A stretch of 64,000 nt of DNA from Saprospiraceae bacterium (GTDB lineage Bacteria; Bacteroidota; Bacteroidia; Chitinophagales; Saprospiraceae), in contig JAHDHW010000003.1 in assembly GCA_020631105.1 (NCBI GenBank), forward strand, positions 1 to 64,000, read 5' to 3'. The notes under the pieces are model-generated. The model worked only from the letters and a program-made list of their open reading frames with translations, had not been told where the DNA came from and made no database searches. Shown here in pieces: positions 4,393 through 20,235 of the stretch. The translations under genes were made by a program, and so were the position numbers. Every line of letters starts with the position of its first letter. Positions within the stretch are counted from its first letter, which is position 1.

Positions 4393-4425
4393 TGCGAATT
4401 GGATAAAAGTAAGATATTTTACCGT

Positions 4426-5157
4426 ATGAAGAACCCGAATGTGCTTAGTAATTTTCAAGAAATAAGAATAGAGTCACCTGTTGATAAGATCATCAGACAG
4501 ATACGAGAATTAATTACTTCCGGGCAATTAAAGCCTGGGGATAAATTACCTCCAGAGCGAAAATTAGCAGAAAAACTAGGCGTTGGTAGAAGTAACGTTC
4601 GGGATGCGATTAAAAAACTAGAGTTTTACGGAATACTAAGAACCCTTCCTCAGAGTGGGACTATAGTTGCAGGTATGGGGATTTCGGCCTTGGAAGGATT
4701 GATCTCAGATGTCTTGAAAATAGAGAATAGCGACTTTATTTCTCTGGTAGAGACAAGGGTGCTAATGGAAACGGAATCTGCAAAGCTAGCAGCAATGAGA
4801 AGAACGGATCAGGATATTGAAGATATCAAAGAGGCATTAGAAGCATATGAACGTAAAGTGAAGCAAAACGAACAGGCAGTAGAAGAGGATTTAATGTTTC
4901 ACCTTAAAATTGCAGAAGCAAGTAAGAATATGGTATTGAAAACACTAATGCTCATAATTACTCCTGACATAATAAATAATTTCATCCAACTTGATATTTG
5001 TAAAGACGGACGAACACGTCTTGATGCATTGAATGAGCATAATATTATTTTAGACCATATCATCGCGCAAAAACCAGAAGAAGCTGCGGAAGCGATGAGA
5101 TTACATCTAAAAGATGTTTTTGATTATAGCCAAAGTTTGAGGGAGCAACAGAAATAG
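4426..5157 (+). CDS. GntR family regulator, FadR subfamily (copy 1)
   Basis: N-terminal winged HTH (LKPGDKLPPERKLAEKLGVGRSNVRDAIKKLEFYGIL) plus FCD-type C-terminal domain. The track start at 4399 is a TTG; ATG 4426 aligns with the start of copy 2. Confidence 0.92.
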   Translation: MKNPNVLSNFQEIRIESPVDKIIRQIRELITSGQLKPGDKLPPERKLAEKLGVGRSNVRDAIKKLEFYGILRTLPQSGTIVAGMGISALEGLISDVLKIENSDFISLVETRVLMETESAKLAAMRRTDQDIEDIKEALEAYERKVKQNEQAVEEDLMFHLKIAEASKNMVLKTLMLIITPDIINNFIQLDICKDGRTRLDALNEHNIILDHIIAQKPEEAAEAMRLHLKDVFDYSQSLREQQK

Positions 5158-5618: not shown

Positions 5619-6350
5619 ATGAAGAACCCGAATGTGCTTAGTAATTTTCAAGAAATAAGAATAGAGTCACCTGTTGATAAGATCATCAGACAGATACGAG
5701 AATTAATTACTTCCGGGCAATTAAAGCCTGGGGATAAATTACCTCCAGAGCGAAAATTAGCAGAAAAACTAGGCGTTGGTAGAAGTAACGTTCGGGATGC
5801 GATTAAAAAACTAGAGTTTTACGGAATACTAAGAACCCTTCCTCAGAGTGGGACTATAGTTGCAGGTATGGGGATTTCGGCCTTGGAAGGATTGATCTCA
5901 GATGTCTTGAAAATAGAGAATAGCGACTTTATTTCTCTGGTAGAGACAAGAGTGCTAATGGAAACGGAATCTGCAAAACATGCAGCGATGAGAAGAACAG
6001 ATCAGGACATAGAAGATATCAAAGAGGCGTTAGAAGCATATGAGCATAAAGTGAAATTAAATCAACAAGCAGTAGAAGAGGATTTAATGTTTCATTTGAA
6101 AATCGCAGAGGCAAGTAAGAATACCGTATTGAAAACACTAATGCTGATTATTACCCCTGATATTATTAATAATTTCATCACACTTGATATTTGTGTAGAC
6201 GGACGGACGCGTCGTGATGCATTGGATGAACACAATGTTATTTTAAAACATATCATTGCGCAAGAACCAGAAGAAGCTGCGGAGGCAATGCGATTACACC
6301 TAAAAGATGTTTTTGATTATAGCCAAAGTTTGAGGAGTTCGCAGAAATAG
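5619..6350 (+). CDS. GntR family regulator, FadR subfamily (copy 2)
   Basis: 243 aa, near-identical paralogue of 4426..5157. Confidence 0.93.
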   Translation: MKNPNVLSNFQEIRIESPVDKIIRQIRELITSGQLKPGDKLPPERKLAEKLGVGRSNVRDAIKKLEFYGILRTLPQSGTIVAGMGISALEGLISDVLKIENSDFISLVETRVLMETESAKHAAMRRTDQDIEDIKEALEAYEHKVKLNQQAVEEDLMFHLKIAEASKNTVLKTLMLIITPDIINNFITLDICVDGRTRRDALDEHNVILKHIIAQEPEEAAEAMRLHLKDVFDYSQSLRSSQK

Positions 6351-6643: not shown

Positions 6644-9600
6644 ATGATACCAAAATTAACAAATTATCTCAACAAGTCATTCTGGAGTTCGCTCTTGATG
6701 GTTTTGTTGCTAGGATTACCTTCTCTCTTGCAAGGAAGCACGAGTACTGAAGCTTTTAAACCAATCACAGGAGTAGTAACTTCTAGTGATGAAGGCCTAC
6801 CCTTAATCGGAGTTACAATTACAGTAAAAGGAACTTCTACGGGTACAATTACAGATGTAAACGGAAATTATACGATTGATGTTGAAGAAGGAGCAATACT
6901 AGTATTTAGTTATACAGGATATAAAAATCAGGAAATAGTCGTTGATTCAAAAACAACTTATGACATCGTTTTAGAAGGAGATGTTTCTCTATTAGACGAA
7001 ATCGTAGTTGTTGGTTACGGTGTTCGTAAGAAATCACACAATACGGGTGCAATTGCACAAGTGGGTGGAGCTGACGTTGCAGCTATTCAGGCCGCTCGGG
7101 TTGATGATGCTTTAGCAGGGAAATTAGCTGGAGTCTTAATTCAAAATCAAGATGGAGCACCTGGTGCAGATCCAAAGATTCAAATTAGGGCTGCATCATC
7201 TATCTCAGGCGATTCCAATCCTCTAATCGTTGTTGATGGTTATCCTATTTCAGGTAGCTTAGCAACGGTTAATCCAAATGATATTGAAAGCCTGGAAGTG
7301 TTAAAAGATGCTGCTTCGGCTGCTATCTATGGATCTCGAGGTGCAAACGGGGTTATTCTGGTTACCACCAAAACGGGGAAATCAGGTAAAGCTAGTTTTA
7401 GCTACGATGCTTATGTGAGTACCTCCAGCAGATATGTTAGAGATAATATTAATCCAACAGCTGGAGAGTGGGCCAATACGGTAGAAAATAATATCGCGAA
7501 TGGGACTTTTAATGTTTCTGAAGTTGAACCTGGGATATTAGATTATAGATTAAATGCACTTAAAAACTCACCGGACGTTGTTGCTGTAGAAGATTGGCTA
7601 TTCCGAAACGGAAATGCTATGAGCCATAACTTTAGCATGAGTGGAGGGACAGATGATGTAAATTATTTCGCTTCAATTGGATATTTAGATGCAGAGGGTA
7701 TTGTGATTACTCAAGGGTTTGAAAGATATAATGCACGATTGAATGTCAATGCTAAACTGGGAGATAAATTCAAAACCGGATTAAATTTCAATGGTTTTGT
7801 ATCAGATAGAGATATCGTGGGTCATGACCAAAGAGACCTTTTGAGAGCTTATAGCGTTCATCCTATTTATCATACAGCAGCATCTATTGCTTTCGTTCAA
7901 CAGTTAGATCAACAAGCGCAATCTTTGGGCTTATCTGCTTTTGATAATGGTTTCAGAGGTGGCGATGCACCTTGGAATAATAGTATTTATACATTAGAGC
8001 CTGGCATGACTGCACAGGATTGGCATTACGGAAGAAGTGGTAACGGTATTGGTGGATCAGGAGATGCGGGCCCTGCTACAAAACTAGATAACACGGACCG
8101 ATGGCAAAAAACATTCTTCGGAAATATTAGCTCTTATTTACAATACAGCATTATAGATGGTTTGGATATCAAAACTGTCCTAGGTGGAGATATCAGAGAT
8201 ACTCGAGATTTTTATTCCAGATCATTGGAGTTTGATTCTAGAGCGCGTACTACTCAAACGAACTTAGATCAAACGGATGTGAAAAGATCTTCAGTGTTAA
8301 GTGAAACAACATTGAACTATACGAAGCAAATAGACAAACATGACATTGGTGCAGTAGCGGGTGTAGAGTTTCAGAATTTCTACATCAGTGGAATCGCTTT
8401 AGATGCTACGAATATACCATTTGGTCAGCCTTTAAATTATGCATTATTAGATCCTGCAGATATTGCGGTTTCAGAAAGAGATGAGACTATTTCGAGAAGA
8501 AGTGTATTTGGAAGAATTAATTATGCGTATGACAATCGATATTTAGCATCTATTTCGGTAAGAAGAGATGGTGATTCTCGCTTTGGAGCAAATAATAGAT
8601 TTGAAACTTTTCCAGCATTTTCTGTAGGGTGGAATTTCCATAATGAGCCTTTTTATAATTCAGATTTTTTGACAGATGTAAAATTTCGATTTAGCCGTGG
8701 ATCTTTAGGAACTACTGCATTTTTAGGAGCTTATAGTTCACTTAGTTTGTTAAATCCACAAGCGTCTATTTTTGGAAATGCATTTTTGATCCCATCAGAT
8801 ATTGCAAACCCAAATTTAACCTGGCAAACAAACACAGAGACCAACCTAGGATTTAACTTAGGCTTCTTAAATAACCGTTTTACATTTGGTTTAGACTACT
8901 ACACATCTGATATTGAAGATATCTTAATTCGTCAGAGTGTCTCTGAAGTATTAGGTACTACTTCTATCGCACTTAACTCTGGTGATGTAACAAGTTCAGG
9001 TTTAGAACTGGAACTAGGTGCTGCTGTGATTAACACAGGTGCTTTCCGATGGAACATTAGCGCTAACCTTTCCACAGTAAATACTGAAATTACAGATCTA
9101 GGAGACCTTACAGAATTGGCTCCTACAATTTATGGACAGAGTGGTCGAGGTCCTGTATTTAGAAATTATGTAGGTGGAGAGATAGGTGAAATGTGGGGAT
9201 TAGAAACTACCGGTGAAGTTGAAATGCAATACCTTTCAAATCCATTGGAATTCCCTGGCCAACAGAGTGGATACAGTTATGTTGTTGATCAAAACGGTGA
9301 CGGTGTAATTGATAGAACAAGAACAGTTGCAGAAGGTGGAGACTTAGTCAAAATAGGACAAAATACTCCTGACTTCTACTTCGGGTTCAATACTCAGGTG
9401 ACGTACAAAGAATTTGATCTCTCTTTACAATTTCAAGGAGCTCAGGGCGCTGAAGTTTATAATATTGACCCACTTTATTACGGATCACAATGGGGTCGAT
9501 CTTTACAAGCTAATTTTGATGCAGATGGTGATGGTAAGGCTGATCACAATGGACAATTCTATGGACGTAATAGAGACCAGGCTGATGCGATGATTCAAGA

Positions 9601-9865
9601 TGCATCTTATCTAGCATTGAGAAACATGACTATAGGATATACACTTGACTCAGGACTTGCTAATAAAGTAGGTTTAGGTTCTGTGAGATTATATGTTGCA
9701 GCGACTAACTTATTATATCTAATGGGAGATGATTATACATCGTTTAACCCAGAAGGTGTAGAGATCACAAACGGCGGCTATTTAGGACCAACAACATATG
9801 GAGTACAAGTAGGTGCAAGCCCGGTTGTAAGAAGTTTCACATTCGGTGCAAATGTTAACTTTTAA
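6644..9865 (+). CDS. susC: SusC/RagA family TonB-linked outer membrane protein
   Basis: Carboxypeptidase-D-like plug extension (ITGVVTSSDEGLPLIGVTITVKGTSTGTITDVNGNY), TonB-box-like EIVVVGYG, SusC plug, beta-barrel. Confidence 0.95.
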   Translation: MIPKLTNYLNKSFWSSLLMVLLLGLPSLLQGSTSTEAFKPITGVVTSSDEGLPLIGVTITVKGTSTGTITDVNGNYTIDVEEGAILVFSYTGYKNQEIVVDSKTTYDIVLEGDVSLLDEIVVVGYGVRKKSHNTGAIAQVGGADVAAIQAARVDDALAGKLAGVLIQNQDGAPGADPKIQIRAASSISGDSNPLIVVDGYPISGSLATVNPNDIESLEVLKDAASAAIYGSRGANGVILVTTKTGKSGKASFSYDAYVSTSSRYVRDNINPTAGEWANTVENNIANGTFNVSEVEPGILDYRLNALKNSPDVVAVEDWLFRNGNAMSHNFSMSGGTDDVNYFASIGYLDAEGIVITQGFERYNARLNVNAKLGDKFKTGLNFNGFVSDRDIVGHDQRDLLRAYSVHPIYHTAASIAFVQQLDQQAQSLGLSAFDNGFRGGDAPWNNSIYTLEPGMTAQDWHYGRSGNGIGGSGDAGPATKLDNTDRWQKTFFGNISSYLQYSIIDGLDIKTVLGGDIRDTRDFYSRSLEFDSRARTTQTNLDQTDVKRSSVLSETTLNYTKQIDKHDIGAVAGVEFQNFYISGIALDATNIPFGQPLNYALLDPADIAVSERDETISRRSVFGRINYAYDNRYLASISVRRDGDSRFGANNRFETFPAFSVGWNFHNEPFYNSDFLTDVKFRFSRGSLGTTAFLGAYSSLSLLNPQASIFGNAFLIPSDIANPNLTWQTNTETNLGFNLGFLNNRFTFGLDYYTSDIEDILIRQSVSEVLGTTSIALNSGDVTSSGLELELGAAVINTGAFRWNISANLSTVNTEITDLGDLTELAPTIYGQSGRGPVFRNYVGGEIGEMWGLETTGEVEMQYLSNPLEFPGQQSGYSYVVDQNGDGVIDRTRTVAEGGDLVKIGQNTPDFYFGFNTQVTYKEFDLSLQFQGAQGAEVYNIDPLYYGSQWGRSLQANFDADGDGKADHNGQFYGRNRDQADAMIQDASYLALRNMTIGYTLDSGLANKVGLGSVRLYVAATNLLYLMGDDYTSFNPEGVEITNGGYLGPTTYGVQVGASPVVRSFTFGANVNF

Positions 9866-9967: not shown

Positions 9968-11281
9968 ATGAAAGTATTATATATCATATTAGGGGTAGTG
10001 CTGTTTATGACAGCATGTGATAATGACCTCGAGCAATTTCCAACCAATATCGCGAGTTCAGAATCCTTGACAGATTATGATGGCGTTTTAAATGCTGCAT
10101 ATTTCTACCAACACTCATCGGCTACACCGATGGCTGTAATGGGCGACTTTAGAGCGGATAACGCTTTAATGTTGGAAGCACCATATACGGATTTTGACGT
10201 ATTCGATGCTAATTTACCTTCGATGGGCGATCAGTTTTTCGGGCCTTTGTATTCAGGTTTATACAAGTCAATTTTAAGTGCGAATAACGTAATCGAAAAT
10301 TCTTTAAATGCTACTGAGGTTGCTGAAGCTAAATTTTTGCGCGGCTTATCTTACTTCAAATTAGTGAAAGTATTTGGTGACGTTACGGTAAACTTATCGG
10401 CTTCTCCAAGTACAACAGAAGGTTCTATTTTGGCTAGACAACGATCAGCTGATGTCTATAATAATGTGATCATTCCTGATTTACAAGATGCAGCGGCAGT
10501 TTTGAGTACGGATGTAGGAAGTGGAAGAGCATCTAAGTATGCAGCTCAGGGAATGCTAGGTAAGGTATACATGCAAATGGGGAATTTTAGTAGTGCTGAA
10601 GCACCGCTTGCAGCAGTTGTAAATGGAGCAGAAGCGGCAGGAATTAGCCTGCAAGAAAATTTTGCTGATATTTTTGGGGAAGCAAATGATCTGAATTCAG
10701 AAATCATATACGCAACTCAAATATCAAGTTCTATAAGTGATGAATATGGTTTTTCTGAGTTTTGGTCATGGTCTGGAGGACTTGATACAAAATCTCTTGA
10801 GCCATTAGATATGGATTTAGTGAATGCTTTTGAGGCAAGTCCGGGTGATTTAAGAAGAGCTGTAACTATTGATACCGCTACGATGGCATCTCCTAAATTT
10901 CCTCAGGCAGGAGGTCCTGATCATGATTGGATAGAACTAAGATTAGCGGATGTTATTCTTTTATATGCAGAGGCATTGAATGAGAACGGTTCGGACGCTG
11001 AGACAGTACTTGATTTATTGGACCCTATCCGAACAAGAGCAGGCTTAGAGCCTTTAGATCATACTGTGCTTAACAGCCAGGGTTTAGTTCGACAAGCTAT
11101 TCAGGATGAAAGAAGACTGGAGTTAGCTTTTGAAGGTCAGCGATGGTTTGATTTAGTTAGAACAGGTACCGTTGATGCTGAAATGGGACAAACGATTAGT
11201 AGTAACTATCATGTATTTCCGATTCCGGTTTCAGAGATACTATCTAGCTTTGGGGTAATTACACAAAACGAAGGTTACTAG
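9968..11281 (+). CDS. susD: SusD/RagB family nutrient-binding outer membrane lipoprotein
   Basis: Lipobox (LFMTACDN); SusD-like C-terminus (IRTRAGLEPLD...QDERRLELAFEGQRWFDLVRTG). Confidence 0.93.
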   Translation: MKVLYIILGVVLFMTACDNDLEQFPTNIASSESLTDYDGVLNAAYFYQHSSATPMAVMGDFRADNALMLEAPYTDFDVFDANLPSMGDQFFGPLYSGLYKSILSANNVIENSLNATEVAEAKFLRGLSYFKLVKVFGDVTVNLSASPSTTEGSILARQRSADVYNNVIIPDLQDAAAVLSTDVGSGRASKYAAQGMLGKVYMQMGNFSSAEAPLAAVVNGAEAAGISLQENFADIFGEANDLNSEIIYATQISSSISDEYGFSEFWSWSGGLDTKSLEPLDMDLVNAFEASPGDLRRAVTIDTATMASPKFPQAGGPDHDWIELRLADVILLYAEALNENGSDAETVLDLLDPIRTRAGLEPLDHTVLNSQGLVRQAIQDERRLELAFEGQRWFDLVRTGTVDAEMGQTISSNYHVFPIPVSEILSSFGVITQNEGY

Positions 11282-11504: not shown

Positions 11505-11669
11505 CCATATTTGCCCAATATGAGATAGGTTAAGGATTATATTTAAATTAAAATACGAAGTACAATTTTTTAATAATAATGCATTTTCAAATGGTATTAC
11601 GATTACCATAGAAATGCGCTAAGAATAAGTTTCATAAGTAAATTACGGGTATAAGTCAACAATACTCAT

Positions 11670-11689
11670 GGGGGGACTTTTGTCCCCCC
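11670..11689 (+). terminator. G/C-rich perfect hairpin upstream of the Nramp-fold transporter gene
   Basis: GGGGGGAC-TTTT-GTCCCCCC, perfect 8-bp stem. Confidence 0.55.
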
Positions 11690-11752
11690 AACCCAATTAT
11701 TTATTAAACAACTTTAGATAATCAAAACATCCTGATTCTTTTATTACAACTA

Positions 11753-13018
11753 ATGCCTAAAAGAGAATCCATATTGAGTAAAATTCTTCTTTTCCTTTTA
11801 GGGATAGGTCCTGGTATTTTTGCCATTGGCTATACTATAGGAACGGGAAGTGTTACGTCAATGATTGTGGCAGGGAGTAGTCATGGGATGCAGCTGCTCT
11901 GGGTCTTAGCGCTAAGTTGTTTGTTTTCATGGGTGCTTATGGAAGCTTATGGAAGGTACTATTTGGTAACTGGAGAGACAGCGTTATTTTCTTTTAAAAA
12001 ACATTTGAAATTAGGCCCTGTCATTTCAATTTTAATAATCATTGGAATCACCTTCGGGCAATGGAATTCTTTGATTGGGATATTAGGAATCTCAGCTAAT
12101 GCGATTGTTGAAACCCTGGCCCTTTTTGTTCCTTCAATCAAAGGTAATGAGTATTGGTGGGTTTTGGTGGTAGCAATTTTGGTTATTGCTGGGATGTATA
12201 CTTTGCTGTGGAAAGGAAGTTATTCTATCTTTGAAAAGATACTTGTATTTTTTGTCTCTTTAATGGGACTCTCTTTTTTCTTTTCCCTTTTTGTTGTTTT
12301 GCCTGACCCTGTTGAGGTATTAAATGGGTTTGTACCATCGATTCCAGAAGTAAAAGGAGGTAAAATGTTGGTGGCTGCATTTGTTGGGACCACCATGGCT
12401 GCGGCTACATTTATTTCCAGGCCACTCTTTATTCAAGGGAAAGGTTGGACCATAGATAATCTGAACGAACAACGAAAGGATGCACTTTGGGCTGCTGTTC
12501 TGATTTTTATTATTAGTGCATCAATTATGGCCGTAGCAATGGCTGCATTTTATCATGATGGTAAAGTGGTCAATAAAGTATTGGATATGGTTTATGCTCT
12601 TGAGCCTATCGCAGGAAGGTTTTCGATTGCGTTATTTTTTATGGGGACATTAGCGGCGGGCTTATCTTCAGTATTCCCTATTCTAATGATTGCACCTTTG
12701 ATGATTGCCGATTATCAACAAGGAAAACTAGATACATCTTCTAAACAATTTAAAATATTGACTGGCATCGCTTGTCTTATTGGATTGGCGGTTCCAATTT
12801 TTGGAGCAAACCCTATCCAAGCTCAAATATTAACACAAGTATTTAATGTCTTTGTGCTCCCTTTGGTAATTATTGGAATTATGATTCTAATCAATAGAAA
12901 AGATCTTATGGGAGTACAAAAAGCAGGGTATTTGTTAAACGCTGGGATGAGCCTGGCCTTACTTTTTGCTTGCATCATATCGTATAATGGAGTTTTAGCG
13001 ATCTGGGAAACAATATAA
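11753..13018 (+). CDS. Nramp-fold (divalent-metal-transporter-like) membrane protein, atypical
   Basis: 11-12 predicted TM segments, N-terminal GPGIFAIGYTIGTGSVTSM resembling Nramp TM1 but without DPGN; TM6-like GTTMAAATFISRPLFIQGK without an MPH motif. Confidence 0.7.
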   Translation: MPKRESILSKILLFLLGIGPGIFAIGYTIGTGSVTSMIVAGSSHGMQLLWVLALSCLFSWVLMEAYGRYYLVTGETALFSFKKHLKLGPVISILIIIGITFGQWNSLIGILGISANAIVETLALFVPSIKGNEYWWVLVVAILVIAGMYTLLWKGSYSIFEKILVFFVSLMGLSFFFSLFVVLPDPVEVLNGFVPSIPEVKGGKMLVAAFVGTTMAAATFISRPLFIQGKGWTIDNLNEQRKDALWAAVLIFIISASIMAVAMAAFYHDGKVVNKVLDMVYALEPIAGRFSIALFFMGTLAAGLSSVFPILMIAPLMIADYQQGKLDTSSKQFKILTGIACLIGLAVPIFGANPIQAQILTQVFNVFVLPLVIIGIMILINRKDLMGVQKAGYLLNAGMSLALLFACIISYNGVLAIWETI

Positions 13019-13079: not shown

Positions 13080-15119
13080 ATGAATAAAAATATTATTACT
13101 GTACTAATTGCATTTATAGGATTGAGTATTTGCTTGGTGCTAAATAGCTGTTCCAATGTTGACAATGATTCTAATAAAAAAGAAGATCAAAAAACTATTT
13201 ACCCAAGTAATGTGATTGCATTCTTTGAGCAGTGGAATTTAATTTTAGGGGATGGTTCAAATGCTGGTCAAGCTGTCAATGTGGAGCATAAAGATTTTTT
13301 CTATGCTGCAAATGATGGTGAAAACGATTGGGTAGTTTTTAAAACGCCTAACGCAGGGAACACTCATGGAACCTCAAATAATACAAGAACAGAATTAGCG
13401 CAGTTGAAAAAATGGTCTCCTATGACTGATGCTAAAATGGAAGCTACGCTTAAGGTAGTAAACGTATCCACTACTGGTGATGCCAGAGTAGCGTCTACAT
13501 ACTCTGTAGTCATTGGGCAGATTCATAGCGCAGACGGTCATGAGAATGAACCGCTTAAAATATTTTACAAAAAATTCCCTGGACATAGTAAAGGCTCTGT
13601 CTTTTGGAACTATGAAATCAATACAGCAGGCGATGATAATTCTGGAAGATGGGATTATTCCTACCCCATTTGGGGTTATGATTTCTCTGTAGTTGGGACT
13701 GGAGAAAATGATTTTCCACCAGAACCAGAAGACGGAATTGAATTAGGAGAAGAAATAACTTACGAAGTAGAAATTAAGGATGGGATTATGAACCTTAAAT
13801 TCACTAGTGAGGGCCATGAAACGAAAACCTTTACTAAAAACCTGATCACTTCTGAATACGCAAAACGCTCAGACATTCCGGAGCAAGTTGAGAATTTGTT
13901 TGTACCTATAGGTCAAGATGGTGTGGAGCGTGAAAATGCTTATACCGAAGAAGGATTATTTTTTAAACTTGGGTGTTACAACCAAACAAACGGAAAAGAT
14001 CCTAAAGTAAATAAAGTCTGGTGCTCTGGCGCCGAAACACATGGTGGGGATATTCAAAAACAATATGCGGATGGAAATTACGCTGAAGTTTGGTTTAAAT
14101 CAGCAAGCATCTCAGTCAGTGATGATGCTATATCAAACGCAGGATATTTCCAGGCTAATGATGGCTTAAGCAAAAAAGTAGTTTACCCTAATGAGGTTAT
14201 ACCTTTTATGGATAAATTTAAAATGTTGATGGGAGACGGAACAAATGTGGAAGACCTTACGGAATTTGAACACAAAGATTTTTTCTATACCGTCATTGAT
14301 GGCACTAGACGGTGGGTAGTCTACAAAACACCTAATTCAGGAGTAACTTCAAAAAACTCCAGCAATACTAGAACGGAGTTACACGAGAAAAGAGATTGGG
14401 TACCTGAGCAAGGAGGAAAGCTCACGGGTACCTGTAAAGTCATGCAGGTCTCTACCTCAGGTGACGCCAGAGTTGCCGCGTCTTACTCAACAGTAGTTGG
14501 GCAGATACATAGTGGCGAAGGACACGAAAATGAACCCTTAAAAATATTTTACAAAAAATTCCCGGGGCATACGAAAGGGTCCGTCTTTTGGAATTATGAA
14601 ATCAATACCGCAGGTGATGATAACTCTGGAAGATGGGATTACTCTAGTGCAGTTTGGGGCTATGATATGTCAGTCATTGGAACAAGCAAAGAGGACTACC
14701 CTGCTGAACCAACAGACGGAATAGAATTAGGTGAAGAGTTTAGTTATGAAGTGAATGTATATAAAGGTATCATGTATCTTACTTTTGAGAGTGAAGGCCA
14801 TGAAACAAAAACCTTTACTAAAAACTTGATCGAATCTGAATACACCAACCCCTCAGATCTTCCTGATCAAGTTAAAAAACTATTCGTACCAATTGGACAA
14901 GATGGAACCGAACGTGCTACGGCCTATAAAGGAGAATTGAATTATTTCAAACAAGGAGCTTATAACCAAACCAATGGAAAAGCTCCTGAAACAAATATGG
15001 TCTGGTGTGCAGGTGCAGAAACCTATGGCGGAGATATAGCTAAACAATATGAAAATGGTTGCTATACAGAGGTTTGGTTTAGAGAAGCTACTGTTGGCCC
15101 AGGGACAGCACCGAAATAG
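13080..15119 (+). CDS. tandem-domain polysaccharide lyase family 7 (alginate lyase) lipoprotein
   Basis: Lipobox LVLNSCSN; two homologous domains, each with PL7-like R-T-E-L, (V)xGQIH and YFK/FFK-x-G-x-YNQ motifs. ATG 13080 preferred over the TTG at 13065. Confidence 0.85.
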   Translation: MNKNIITVLIAFIGLSICLVLNSCSNVDNDSNKKEDQKTIYPSNVIAFFEQWNLILGDGSNAGQAVNVEHKDFFYAANDGENDWVVFKTPNAGNTHGTSNNTRTELAQLKKWSPMTDAKMEATLKVVNVSTTGDARVASTYSVVIGQIHSADGHENEPLKIFYKKFPGHSKGSVFWNYEINTAGDDNSGRWDYSYPIWGYDFSVVGTGENDFPPEPEDGIELGEEITYEVEIKDGIMNLKFTSEGHETKTFTKNLITSEYAKRSDIPEQVENLFVPIGQDGVERENAYTEEGLFFKLGCYNQTNGKDPKVNKVWCSGAETHGGDIQKQYADGNYAEVWFKSASISVSDDAISNAGYFQANDGLSKKVVYPNEVIPFMDKFKMLMGDGTNVEDLTEFEHKDFFYTVIDGTRRWVVYKTPNSGVTSKNSSNTRTELHEKRDWVPEQGGKLTGTCKVMQVSTSGDARVAASYSTVVGQIHSGEGHENEPLKIFYKKFPGHTKGSVFWNYEINTAGDDNSGRWDYSSAVWGYDMSVIGTSKEDYPAEPTDGIELGEEFSYEVNVYKGIMYLTFESEGHETKTFTKNLIESEYTNPSDLPDQVKKLFVPIGQDGTERATAYKGELNYFKQGAYNQTNGKAPETNMVWCAGAETYGGDIAKQYENGCYTEVWFREATVGPGTAPK

Positions 15120-15172: not shown

Positions 15173-15514
15173 ATGGTAAAAGCATCTAAAGAATTCTTCT
15201 TCCAGGAAGAACAAGAATGGGAACAAGTAGACCCATTACTTCGCAGACAAATTCATGGTTATGATGATAAAATAATGCTGGTCATTGCTGATTTCAAAGC
15301 AGGTGGTGTAGGCCAGTTGCATAATCACCATCATTCTCAGGTAACCTATGTCGAAAGTGGTGAGTTTGAAATGACGATTGGCGATGAAGTTAAAACGATT
15401 AAAGGTGGAGACTCCTACTATATCCCTCCTATGGTGATGCATGGATGCACATGTATAAAGGCTGGGAAATTAATAGATGTCTTTAGTCCAATGAGAGAAG
15501 ATTTTTTAGAGTAA
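15173..15514 (+). CDS. kdgF: cupin-domain protein, KdgF-like
   Basis: Cupin motif GQLHNHHHSQVTYVESGEFEMTIG...YYIPPMVMHGCTC; position in the uronate locus. Confidence 0.8.
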   Translation: MVKASKEFFFQEEQEWEQVDPLLRRQIHGYDDKIMLVIADFKAGGVGQLHNHHHSQVTYVESGEFEMTIGDEVKTIKGGDSYYIPPMVMHGCTCIKAGKLIDVFSPMREDFLE

Positions 15515-15541: not shown

Positions 15542-16828
15542 ATGAAATTTAAAGGATTAAGATGGTGGGTCATAGGACTGATTGCTTTAGCTGCTGTTAT
15601 CAATTATATTGATAGGCAAGCTTTTTCAGTGTTATGGGAGTCAAGTATCGGAGAGGAAATGTATCCAGACCTAAATGCAGACGAAAGAGCAGAGATATAT
15701 GCTAAAATCGGAACAGCCTTTATTTTAGCTTATGCTTTTGGGCAAATGCTTTTTGGGCGGATATTTGATAAACTCGGAACCCGAATAGGTTTTGTACTTT
15801 CCTTAGGATTTTGGTCTCTGGCAACGGCAATGCATGCCTTTGCAAAAGGACTGGTAAGCTTCTCTGCAATGAGAGTTTTACTTGGCTTATCGGAGGCTGG
15901 TAACTGGCCCGGGGCCGCCAAAGGAAATGCAGAATGGTTTCCAACTGATGAACGAGCTGTTGCTCAAGGTATATTTAATTTTGGAGCCTCTTTTGGCGCT
16001 ATGATATCTATTCCAGTAATTGCTATCTTAGCATTAAATTATTCCTGGCAAACAATATTTATCATGATCGGGGTCGCTGGTCTTTTATGGCTTATCCCTT
16101 GGTGGATAATGGTCAAAGCACCACCTAAGGAACACCCATGGTTAACACAAAAAGAAAAAGATTATATTCTAGGAGGCCAACAAAATGAAAGCCTTGATAA
16201 TGCAGATGAAAAAAGCCAAAGTATTGGTCAGATTTTAAGCAAGAAAGAAAGCTGGGGGGTAATAATCGCTTCTGCAGCTATTGATCCAATCTGGTGGTTA
16301 TTTGTTATTTGGATACCTAACTATTTAACTCAGGTATATGACATGGATGTTAAGGGTATTGCAATCTACGGATGGGTGCCTTTCTTCGGAGCAATGCTTG
16401 GTGCTTGGTTTGGAGGTTTAATAGCAAAATATTTTTTCAACAAAGGGTGGGATGTCAATAAAGTACGAAAGACGACCATCGCAATAGGCTGTGCCATTAT
16501 GTTACCATCATTATTGGCGATGAGTTCTCCGGGGTCTCCTGTAATTGCTGTCATTATTATGGCCGTCATCCTTTTTGGTTTTCAAACCGCAATTGGTAAT
16601 ATTCAAACCTTGCCAAGTGATTTGTTAAGTGGAAAGTCTGTTGGAACATTATCTGGACTTTCGGGTATGGCTGCAAAATTGGCTGCAGCTGGTCTTACAA
16701 GAGTTGTCCCTATAATTGTAGTAAGCTTTAATTACTCAGCGGTATTTATCATTGGTGCCATTCTAGTGACAATAGTAATCGCTAGTATTTGGCTTTTATG
16801 TCCTAGAATCGAACCAATAAAAAATTAA
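15542..16828 (+). CDS. MFS transporter, hexuronate (ExuT)-like
   Basis: 12-TM MFS; AVINYIDRQAFSVL and LLGLSEAGNWPGAAKGNAEWFPTDERAVAQGIFNFGASFGAMI motifs typical of ACS-family uronate transporters. Confidence 0.88.
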   Translation: MKFKGLRWWVIGLIALAAVINYIDRQAFSVLWESSIGEEMYPDLNADERAEIYAKIGTAFILAYAFGQMLFGRIFDKLGTRIGFVLSLGFWSLATAMHAFAKGLVSFSAMRVLLGLSEAGNWPGAAKGNAEWFPTDERAVAQGIFNFGASFGAMISIPVIAILALNYSWQTIFIMIGVAGLLWLIPWWIMVKAPPKEHPWLTQKEKDYILGGQQNESLDNADEKSQSIGQILSKKESWGVIIASAAIDPIWWLFVIWIPNYLTQVYDMDVKGIAIYGWVPFFGAMLGAWFGGLIAKYFFNKGWDVNKVRKTTIAIGCAIMLPSLLAMSSPGSPVIAVIIMAVILFGFQTAIGNIQTLPSDLLSGKSVGTLSGLSGMAAKLAAAGLTRVVPIIVVSFNYSAVFIIGAILVTIVIASIWLLCPRIEPIKN

Positions 16829-16846
16829 AAAATTAAATAAATAATT

Positions 16847-17605
16847 ATGAATAGTAAGAAAGTAGCTATTGTAACTGGCGCCACCACAGGTATTGGTTTC
16901 GCAGTAGCAAAAAGATTAGGAAAAGACGGATTTAGTATAGCCCTAAACGGGATTAATGACGAAGAAGGAGCTCAAAGAGTCGAAGAACTCAAAGCAGAAG
17001 GTATCGATGCAGAATACTTTGGGTTTGATGTTACCAAAGAAGATGCGGTAACTGAAAATATCGTCCGAATCGGTGAAAAACATGGAAAAATTGACGTGCT
17101 CGTAAATAACGCCGGTGGCCTGGGAGGAAGATCCAGGTTTGAAGATATGACTACAGAGTTTTACAGATTTGTCATGGCATTAAACTTAGACTCTGTATTT
17201 TTTGCTTCAAGAGCAGCAATACCATTCCTTAAAAAAGGAGATAATCCAACGATTATTAATTACACCTCGAATGCAGGTTGGAATGCCGGAGGACCAGGTG
17301 CTGGAATTTACGGAACCTCCAAAGCTGGCGTTCATACCATTACCAGAGCACTTGCAAAAGATTTGGCGGAGTATGGCATCAGAGTAAATGCAGTTTCACC
17401 AGGTACAATTGACACTGATTTTCACAAGCAAATTAAATCAACGAAACCAGAAGTCTTTGCTTCCTGGGCGAATAATATTATGCTAAAAAGATTAGGCCAG
17501 CCAGAAGATGTCGCTGGTGTAGTTTCTTTCTTAGCCAGTAAAGATGCATCTTTCCTAACTGCAGAAACAATCCAGGTAGGTGGGGGTCAAGCTTTAGGAA
17601 TCTAA
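16847..17605 (+). CDS. SDR family oxidoreductase (candidate DEH reductase)
   Basis: TGATTGIG cofactor motif, NNAG, YGTSKAG; locus context. Confidence 0.85.
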   Translation: MNSKKVAIVTGATTGIGFAVAKRLGKDGFSIALNGINDEEGAQRVEELKAEGIDAEYFGFDVTKEDAVTENIVRIGEKHGKIDVLVNNAGGLGGRSRFEDMTTEFYRFVMALNLDSVFFASRAAIPFLKKGDNPTIINYTSNAGWNAGGPGAGIYGTSKAGVHTITRALAKDLAEYGIRVNAVSPGTIDTDFHKQIKSTKPEVFASWANNIMLKRLGQPEDVAGVVSFLASKDASFLTAETIQVGGGQALGI

Positions 17606-17631: not shown

Positions 17632-18387
17632 ATGAGTAAATTTAAAGGAAAGGTAGCCGTAGTCACCGGAGGAGGTAGAGATATTGGCCGTGCAATATCA
17701 GTCAAATTAGCAAGAGAAGGAGCCAAAGTAGTAGTAAATTATAATAGTTCTAGAGCCGGAGCTAAAGCAACGGTAGAAGAGATAGAATCTTTCGGAGGAA
17801 AAGCAATCGCAGTGAAGGCTGATGTATCCAAATTGAGAAGCATCAAAAGTTTAAAGACGAAAACAGTTAAAGCTTTTGGTAAAAAGGTTGACATCCTGGT
17901 CAATAATGCCGGAGGGCTTTTTGCTCGTAAAACATTGCAAGAGTTAGATGAAGATTTCTATGACCTGGTCATGAACGTGAATTTTAAATCTACCGTTTTC
18001 GTAATGCAGGTGTTCGAACCTTTAATGGGGAAAGGCTCCTCTATTATTAACCTTTCTTCTTTGGCAGCTAGAGATGGCGGTGGTGGCGGATCTTCCTTAT
18101 ATGCATCTTCTAAAGGAGCGACCACAACCTTTACCAGAGCCATGGCAAAAGAACTTGGACCTAAAGGTATCAGAGTAAATGCAGTATGTCCAGGTTTAAT
18201 TGGTACCAAGTTTCATGATGATTTCACAAAAGATGAAATTCGAAAAATGGTTGCCGGAAAAACGCCTGTGAGAAGAGAAGGTAGAGCAGATGAGGTGGCA
18301 GACTTAGTAGCTTACTTAGCTTCTGCCGAAAGCTCGTTTGTCACAGGAGCTAACTTCGACATCAATGGTGGATTAGCTTTTTCTTAA
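17632..18387 (+). CDS. SDR family oxidoreductase (candidate DEH reductase)
   Basis: TGGGRDIG cofactor motif, NNAG, YASSKGA; locus context. Confidence 0.85.
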   Translation: MSKFKGKVAVVTGGGRDIGRAISVKLAREGAKVVVNYNSSRAGAKATVEEIESFGGKAIAVKADVSKLRSIKSLKTKTVKAFGKKVDILVNNAGGLFARKTLQELDEDFYDLVMNVNFKSTVFVMQVFEPLMGKGSSIINLSSLAARDGGGGGSSLYASSKGATTTFTRAMAKELGPKGIRVNAVCPGLIGTKFHDDFTKDEIRKMVAGKTPVRREGRADEVADLVAYLASAESSFVTGANFDINGGLAFS

Positions 18388-18430: not shown

Positions 18431-19468
18431 ATGAAAAAAGTAGTAACCTTCGGAGAGATCATGCTCCGACTGACACCCCCTAGCCTAAAGCGGTTCTCAC
18501 AAGCAAATTCATTTGATGTTATTTATGGCGGTGGCGAAAGTAACGTAGCGGTGTCTCTTGCTAACTATGGAGTACCAGTGGAGTTTGTTACCCGTTTACC
18601 TCAAAATGATATCGGGGAGTGTGCCTTGATGGAAATGCGGAAACGAGGCGTAGGAACACAACAAATCATTCGCGGTGGTGAACGATTAGGAATTTACTTC
18701 CTGGAGATCGGTGCGGTTAGCCGTGGGAGTAAAGTGGTCTATGATAGAGCACATTCAGCAATGTCAACCATTGAAGCTGGGATGATTGATTGGGAAGAAG
18801 TATTTAAAGACGCAGGATGGTTTCATTGGACAGGTATTACACCAGCGATTTCTCAAGGTGCCGCAGATGCTTGCCTGGAAGCGATTCAAATGGCGAATAA
18901 AATGGGCGTTACCGTTTCAACCGACTTAAACTATCGCAAAAAATTATGGAAATACGGCAAAGAACCTGGAGAAGTAATGCCAGAGCTCGTTGCTGGTTGT
19001 GATATAATCTTAGGGAATGAAGAAGATGCTGAAAAGCACTTCGGGTTACACCCCGAAGGACTTGATGTTACTGCTGGTCATGAAGTGGATGCCAAATCCT
19101 ATCTGTCAGTACTTCAACAACTAATGAAAATGTTTCCCCGTGCAAAGAAAGTTATCACAACTTTAAGAGGCTCGATTAGTGCTTCGCATAATACATGGTC
19201 CGGTGTTTTATACGATGGCAAGACTTTGTATGAAGCACCAACGTATCAAATTACCCATATTGTTGATCGTGTAGGAGGAGGAGATAGTTTTATGGGTGGC
19301 TTGATTTACGGGCTGTTACAATATCCGGAGGATGATCAAAATGCATTGAACTTTGCAGTTGCTGCATCCTGCTTGAAACATACCATTTACGGTGACGCCA
19401 ATTTAGCAACAATAGATGAGGTCGAAAAACTTATGAGTGGAGACGCCAGCGGTAGAGTTGCTAGATAG
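18431..19468 (+). CDS. kdgK: 2-keto-3-deoxygluconate kinase (PfkB family)
   Basis: MKKVVTFGEIMLRLTPP...GGGESNVAVSLANYG; C-terminal VDRVGGGDSFMGGLIYGL. Confidence 0.92.
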   Translation: MKKVVTFGEIMLRLTPPSLKRFSQANSFDVIYGGGESNVAVSLANYGVPVEFVTRLPQNDIGECALMEMRKRGVGTQQIIRGGERLGIYFLEIGAVSRGSKVVYDRAHSAMSTIEAGMIDWEEVFKDAGWFHWTGITPAISQGAADACLEAIQMANKMGVTVSTDLNYRKKLWKYGKEPGEVMPELVAGCDIILGNEEDAEKHFGLHPEGLDVTAGHEVDAKSYLSVLQQLMKMFPRAKKVITTLRGSISASHNTWSGVLYDGKTLYEAPTYQITHIVDRVGGGDSFMGGLIYGLLQYPEDDQNALNFAVAASCLKHTIYGDANLATIDEVEKLMSGDASGRVAR

Positions 19469-19563: not shown

Positions 19564-20235
19564 ATGGCAAGATTTACAAGAATACAAGTTGCTCAAAAGA
19601 TGTCGGAACAAGGGCTTGTTCCTCTTTTTTATCATTCTGATTTAGAAGTTTGCAAAAAGGTGATTTCTGCCTGCTATCATGGTGGCGCACGCTTACTGGA
19701 GTTTACCAATCGCGGGGATTATGCCCATGAAGTTTTTGGTGAATTGAATAAGTACTGTGCAAAAGAACTACCGGAGATGATACTAGGCGTCGGATCAATC
19801 ACCGATGGTGGAACGGCTTCCTTATTCATGCAATTAGGAGCCAACTTTATTGTCTCCGCTTCCATTCGAAAAGATGTGGCTATAGCCTGTAACCGAAGAA
19901 AGGTATTGTATAGTCCGGGATGCGGTACGCTGACAGAAGTAGGCGAAGCCGAAGAACTAGGTTGCGAAGTGGTAAAACTCTTCCCGGGGAGTGTCTACGG
20001 GCCAGGTTTTATTAAGGCTATTCGCGGGCCACAGCCTTGGACAAACGTAATGCCTACCGGCGGAGTATCTCCAGATTATGATAATCTAAAAACGTGGATC
20101 GATGCTGGCGCCTATTGTGTCGGAATGGGATCTAAGTTGATGCTAAAAGATGCACAAGGGAATTTCGACTTTGTAGGTATAGAGAAAATATGCCGACAAA
20201 CGCTGGCTTCTATTCAAGAAATCAGAAATGCCTGA
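19564..20235 (+). CDS. kdgA: KDPG / 4-hydroxy-2-oxoglutarate aldolase
   Basis: EFTNRG catalytic Glu region, CEVVKLFPG Schiff-base Lys, PTGGV. Confidence 0.93.
   Translation: MARFTRIQVAQKMSEQGLVPLFYHSDLEVCKKVISACYHGGARLLEFTNRGDYAHEVFGELNKYCAKELPEMILGVGSITDGGTASLFMQLGANFIVSASIRKDVAIACNRRKVLYSPGCGTLTEVGEAEELGCEVVKLFPGSVYGPGFIKAIRGPQPWTNVMPTGGVSPDYDNLKTWIDAGAYCVGMGSKLMLKDAQGNFDFVGIEKICRQTLASIQEIRNA

Follow-up and report, generated by a model that had tools for sequence, protein, structure and literature searches.

Metal import is the textbook role of Nramp proteins, and annotation pipelines label even distant relatives as divalent metal transporters. Three classes are distinguished by motifs in TM1 and TM6: NRAMP has DxxN with A/CxxM, NRAT has DxxN with AxxT and NRMT has DxxG with TxxA/T (PMC8806188). 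Nramp-related proteins that have neither DPGN nor MPH form a diverse, paraphyletic but recognised group (PMC12873925). C. glutamicum needs PxpT (cg1142), an Nramp-family protein 50% identical to B. subtilis YcsG, in order to grow on 5-oxoproline, as confirmed by complementation (PMC13274462). However, YcsG has been reported to be a Mn importer that raises cellular Mn (PMC10448178). The organic-acid role of PxpT and YcsG is therefore contested, and the loss of DPGN alone does not exclude metals. A gene labelled 'Nramp, metal-ion transporter' is present in the alginolytic systems of Alteromonas sp. 76-1, where it was named but not studied for function (PMC6431674); by its annotation it resembles the gene analysed here in lying inside an alginate locus. 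In the open-licence full-text literature we found no study of what Nramp-fold proteins do in loci for alginate or other polysaccharides. The original prediction for our gene, made from the DNA sequence, was of an undescribed function. Given the Alteromonas label and the recognised group of motif-less proteins, both already known, this was slightly too strong.

The window is the whole stretch of 64,000 nucleotides that was analysed, from a Saprospiraceae bacterium. The gene lies between those for the SusD-like lipoprotein and the PL7 lyase, as had been predicted, and within a full alginate and uronate operon (Table 1). Alginate is a sugar polymer of brown seaweed. From SusC/SusD through to KDPG aldolase the locus looks like a complete alginate-to-KDPG operon, with two GntR/FCD regulator genes in tandem upstream. 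The MFS gene of the same operon presumably serves uronate uptake, but its product belongs to a different fold and family, and it is present in many alginate loci that have no Nramp-related gene. The PL7 protein contains two tandem alginate-lyase domains of similar sequence. The gap of 471 nt between the SusD and transporter genes contains a perfect, strong hairpin at 11669-11690 (GGGGGGAC-TTTT-GTCCCCCC). The region has a folding z of −3.2, and no T tract follows directly. A terminator scan of the gap found no site, and the hairpin may serve in the processing or stability of the mRNA.

Table 1. Features of the alginate locus and of the Nramp-related protein, in window coordinates
Feature	Coordinates	Strand	Basis or remark
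GntR/FCD regulator	4399..5157	+	
Second GntR/FCD regulator, in tandem with the first, upstream of the operon	5619..6350	+	
SusC-like TonB-dependent receptor	6644..9865	+	read from sequence
SusD-like lipoprotein	9968..11281	+	
Nramp-related (LeuT-fold) transporter gene, the subject of this study	11753..13018	+	ORF of 421 aa
TM1 unwound segment GYTIGTGSVTS, residues 26-36, replacing DPGN	11828..11860	+	alignment
TM6 segment GTTMAAATFISRP, residues 212-224, replacing ..VMPH....H	12386..12424	+	alignment
Codon of invariant R223, at DraNramp H237	12419-12421	+	alignment
Alginate lyase PL7 (ATG 13080; listed ORF from TTG 13065)	13080..15119	+	PF08787, 2 stretches
Cupin, KdgF-like	15173..15514	+	
MFS transporter (galactonate/hexuronate type), second inner-membrane carrier of the locus	15542..16828	+	
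SDR oxidoreductase (DEH-reductase candidate)	16847..17605	+	
SDR oxidoreductase	17632..18387	+	
PfkB-family KDG kinase	18431..19468	+	
KDPG aldolase	19564..20235	+	NF005499, 363 bits

The 421-aa protein matches the Pfam Nramp family (PF01566) with 205.3 bits against a cut-off of 29.8. It also scores 96 bits against NCBIfam NF037982 'Nramp family divalent metal transporter', where the cut-off is 50, so automated annotation would name it a metal transporter. The closest reference sequences of the PDB are BfraNramp, EleNRMT and DraNramp (E = 4e-14 to 8e-10). An AlphaFold2 model was calculated from an alignment of 46 sequences, comprising the window protein and 45 orthologues that are 56-84% identical to it, and has a mean pLDDT of 83.7 and a pTM of 0.85. 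Foldseek comparison of the model with the PDB put DraNramp, EleNRMT and BfraNramp at the top with target-normalised TM-scores of 0.79-0.84 (0.81-0.84 for the best matches), apart from one lower-ranked exception, and other LeuT-fold carriers such as ApcT at lower ranks. Judged by the model, this is a true Nramp-fold protein. The likeness to Nramp is thus not confined to the N-terminus, where it had been noted for TM1, but holds for the whole fold.

The metal site is quite different. In alignment with DraNramp the TM1 residues D56, P57 and N59 are replaced by G30, T31 and S33, and M230, P231, H232 and H237 of TM6 by A216, A217, A218 and R223. The positions of the proton pathway in TM3 and TM9 have also changed, with E134, D131, R352 and R353 becoming I110, L107, K331 and Q332. 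Q378, corresponding to Q362 in the window protein, is the only metal-site residue retained. The protein therefore resembles canonical Nramp/MntH proteins such as DraNramp and BfraNramp in its fold, overall topology and this one glutamine, but differs at D56, N59, M230, P231, H232, H237, E134 and D131, all of which are replaced. Where SLC11/MntH has DxxN with A/CxxM-P-H it has GxxS with TxxA-A-A, and so the TM1 aspartate common to NRAMP, NRAT and NRMT is absent. The replacement of DPGN and of Met-Pro-His had been predicted with exactly these motifs; one refinement is that M215 stands beside the canonical Met position, one residue ahead of it. We also considered whether a slip of register might bring M215 into the metal site, but no register restores the Asp and Asn of TM1. 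The changes in both ligands and proton-path residues support the original prediction that Mn or Fe is not moved by the canonical mechanism.

The replacements are themselves strongly conserved. In all 46 aligned sequences G26, T28, G30, T31, G32, S33 and T35 are invariant in TM1, and T213, T214, M215, A216, T219, F220 and R223 in TM6. Elsewhere the same is true of Q103 in TM3 and of Q358 and Q362 in TM10. Such invariance rules out chance or decay as the origin of the GTGS motif. On the evidence of the alignment, the GTGS site is a different conserved site and not a broken one.

We placed the protein among its relatives in a tree calculated by a quick method, with SH-aLRT support and with long branches flagged. 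The GTGS proteins (groups A and B, 77 rows) come together with a support of 99, separate both from the reference proteins DraNramp, BfraNramp and EleNRMT and from a group of PxpT-like proteins with the motifs GPGT and VVPYN. The position of the window protein relative to Nramp and NRMT, raised as a check with the original prediction, is thus in a GTGS branch outside the reference branch. Within A there are two groups, A1 (35 rows including the window protein, support 95) and A2 (24 rows, support 92). Row L106 falls outside both, and L046, labelled A by the script, is a B-type protein. TM6 positions 218 and 222 are Ala/Ser in A1 and Pro/Val in A2, and this difference tracks the type of locus; from the sequences these are candidate specificity residues. 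A1 proteins are found in Saprospiraceae, Lewinellaceae, Flavobacteriaceae and one Cyclobacteriaceae MAG, and A2 proteins in Cyclobacterium and its relatives, Prolixibacteraceae, Latescibacterota, Planctomycetota and Verrucomicrobiota.

NRMT shares with the window protein the Nramp fold (TM-score of 0.81 to EleNRMT by target length) and TxxA in TM6, seen here as T213..A216. However, NRMT keeps the TM1 Asp in DxxG where the window protein has GxxS (G30..S33), and the tree places the latter apart from the reference branch. PxpT and YcsG are similar to the window protein in having the Nramp fold and in being encoded in an operon degrading the presumed organic-acid substrate, and the PxpT-like proteins of Bacteroidota that we examined likewise have no DPGN. 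The genome of the window has such a paralogue (GPGT / VVPYN; G000:C86:8551-9786, L130), directly upstream of pxpABC-type 5-oxoprolinase genes, and the same gene order occurs in the PxpT-type loci examined with flanks elsewhere in Bacteroidota. Yet the window protein is only ~27% identical to it, has GTGS / MAAA....R in place of GPGT / VVPYN....H and lies on a separate branch of the tree. The combination of a pxpA/B/C neighbour with GPGT and VVPYN is not seen at the window gene. A search of the window's own genome for a canonical DPGN Nramp found none. A PxpT-like Nramp with TM1 GPGT was also observed on a Haloferax lucentense plasmid (L226:5941-10777), with genes for hydantoinase/oxoprolinase A and B directly after it, again an organic-acid or amide setting. 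None of the plasmid matches inspected when seeking Alteromonas homologues came from an alginate locus.

We then compared the gene neighbourhoods of A1 and A2 over a range of 10 kb, using profiles built from the loci themselves. Assignment to A1 or A2 was made by the TM6 motif and is independent of gene context, and the counts exclude one duplicate A1 locus. PL7, PL17 or PL6 lyase genes were present in 35/44 A1 loci but in 0/33 of the A2 set, which comprises A2 and three unassigned A loci found by the same searches as A1 (Fisher 7.8e-14). Including KdgF, KDGK and KDPG aldolase with the lyases gives 41/44 for A1 and 1/33 for A2 (Fisher 4.4e-17); related genomes are not independent, so both p values overstate the evidence, while the shortness of many contigs could bias the counts in one direction only, downward. 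The contrast holds over several Bacteroidota families. Two genomes outside the count, G711 and G434, also fit the association of A1 with alginate; G506/L237 was excluded as an out-of-sample case, being apparently the same contig as L070 (both 216,754 bases). The original prediction would have been undermined had the gene not been associated with uronate loci elsewhere. The association was tested and is clearly present, in 41 of the 44 A1 loci against one of 33.

The placement of the A1 gene in alginate loci is conserved well beyond one genome and recurs in dozens of marine bacteria. It has a same-strand neighbour upstream in 43/44 loci and downstream in 39/44, with median gaps of 95 and 62 nt. 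In Saprospiraceae it is located at the lyase end of the operon, adjoining SusD and PL genes, and in several Flavobacteriaceae it is the last gene, 3-4 nt after KDPG aldolase. In an even sample of 396 Bacteroidota genomes, a close relative of the alginate MFS was found in 6/6 of those with A1 and in 29/396 overall (Fisher 9e-8), and 26/44 A1 loci have the MFS within 10 kb. The idea that the Nramp-related protein substitutes for the MFS only where that is missing is unsupported, since both co-occur. Of the 29 MFS-containing genomes in the sample, 23 have no A1 gene, which is therefore accessory and not required for growth on alginate in general.

The other GTGS relatives have different neighbours. 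Genes near A2 encode, among others, MR/MLE sugar-acid dehydratases, HpcH/HpaI aldolase, and DGOK with KDPG aldolase, together with sulfatases, BNR proteins, alpha-L-fucosidases and TIM barrels of sugar-isomerase type. In Cyclobacterium and Lunatibacter (L078, L080-L082, L085-L088, L090, L094, L109) the A2 gene is divergent from genes for two amidohydrolases, a PLP enzyme and a RidA-like protein, with EgtB/EgtD-like genes further out in most Cyclobacterium loci. In six loci (L097, L103, L104, L105, L111, L116) a protein of ~550-590 aa, cluster c35, is encoded directly upstream of the transporter, and in 5/6 of these a member of the HpcH/HpaI aldolase cluster is downstream. Two members of c35 were scanned and gave no Pfam match; c35 is likely a partner enzyme family of the A2 transporter. 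Clade B genes are found near GH2, GH20, TIM-barrel sugar-isomerase-type and glucosamine isomerase-like genes.

A clade B-like protein (GYSIGTGSITTM, 36.5% identity) is present in 547/5,426 complete E. coli genomes (~10%), where its gene lies between CoA-transferase/enoyl-CoA hydratase and flavoprotein genes. In strain SK1144 (L227:7072-8301) it shares an operon with CoA-transferase, enoyl-CoA hydratase, FAD oxidoreductase and a LacI regulator. The E. coli homologue is annotated as a divalent metal transporter. In CP054241.1 (L224:7980-9259), an 834-kb record called a plasmid although it carries chromosomal genes, dnaB and alr among them, the homologue is split into two frames; it is intact in other E. 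coli genomes. The GTGS branch thus reaches through Bacteroidota, Planctomycetota, Latescibacterota and Verrucomicrobiota to about a tenth of E. coli genomes, and carbohydrate or organic-acid catabolism is one common setting of its genes.

Taking these observations together, we think that the protein is probably an inner-membrane importer of an alginate-derived uronate, acting beside the MFS of the locus, with a probability of about two in three. That the substrate is a uronate, that transport is inward and how it is coupled are all things that we infer. The original proposal was of uptake, with alginate oligomers, uronates or a counter-ion as the cargo; a role in uptake is supported, and four points favor a uronate over a counter-ion: the acidic ligand is lost, the Arg of TM6 is invariant, the relatives have a sugar-acid context and PxpT provides an example. 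The protein would be a secondary transporter in which the Nramp version of the LeuT fold now serves organic acids instead of cations. SusC and SusD would carry oligomers through the outer membrane, and the lyases would then cut them. The transporter would import an unsaturated or keto uronate, which could be DEH, unsaturated or saturated mannuronate or guluronate, or a very short oligouronate, and KdgF, the SDRs, KDG kinase and KDPG aldolase would finish it in the cytoplasm. It might complement the MFS, perhaps with another uronate or another affinity.

The sugar acid might be held between the unwound TM1 (T28, T31, S33, T35) and TM6 (T213, T214, T219), with polar contacts to Q103 of TM3 and Q358/Q362 of TM10. 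R223 of TM6b could contact the carboxylate, either within the pocket or along the exit path. It aligns with DraNramp H237, which is found on TM6b beneath the metal site (PMC6398981), so R223 may belong to the exit path and not to the binding site. The transport cycle would be the ordinary alternating access of the LeuT fold. The proton path of canonical Nramp is gone, so coupling would use another route or none; Na+ at a TM1/TM8 site is a possible coupling ion. Whether the whole GTGS branch (A1, A2 and B) consists of sugar-acid or organic-acid carriers we regard as evenly balanced.

The protein could still be a carrier of cations (Mg, Ca, Mn or monovalent), handling alginate counter-ions or supplying metal to the enzymes of the pathway. 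The match to NF037982 points that way, as do the location of M215 next to the canonical Met position, the apparent lack of a DPGN Nramp in the genome and the reported import of Mn by YcsG (PMC10448178). The TxxA of TM6 also resembles that half of the NRMT Mg motif (PMC8806188). Yet the TM1 Asp of NRAMP, NRAT and NRMT is Gly in every member, E134 has become Ile or Leu and TM6 has its invariant Arg. Moreover the loci of A2 and clade B serve sugars other than alginate, so an explanation based on gel counter-ions does not extend to the relatives and is down-weighted. We therefore consider cation transport unlikely.

Slightly less likely is export, either of a uronate or keto intermediate such as DEH that is toxic or in surplus, or of an end product. 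DEH is chemically reactive (PMC6868183), most A1 loci already have the MFS for import, and the final position of the gene after KDPG aldolase in several Flavobacteriaceae would suit an exporter. But the characterised relatives PxpT and YcsG act as uptake systems, and the Saprospiraceae gene sits at the lyase end of its operon beside SusD and PL genes. Import of a small non-sugar co-nutrient or compatible solute linked to algal growth would agree with the accessory distribution of A1 and with the non-sugar organic-acid context of the E. coli homologue. It is nevertheless the least probable of these readings, given the tight operons with lyases and KDG/KDPG enzymes over Saprospiraceae, Flavobacteriaceae and the Cyclobacteriaceae MAG, and the near absence of such genes around A2.

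The protein is new within the Nramp-related group, and is not a new fold or system. If uronate import is correct, bacteria that live on alginate possess a second uronate importer that has so far gone unrecognised. If the whole GTGS branch carries sugar acids and organic acids, its members would represent the first carbohydrate transporters with an Nramp fold, and the name of divalent metal transporter that public annotation gives them would be wrong. The branch also helps in weighing the conflict between metal and organic acid for YcsG. The A1/A2 split would then provide a natural comparison for the residues of specificity, and the Nramp superfamily would show one fold moving between metal ions and organic acids.
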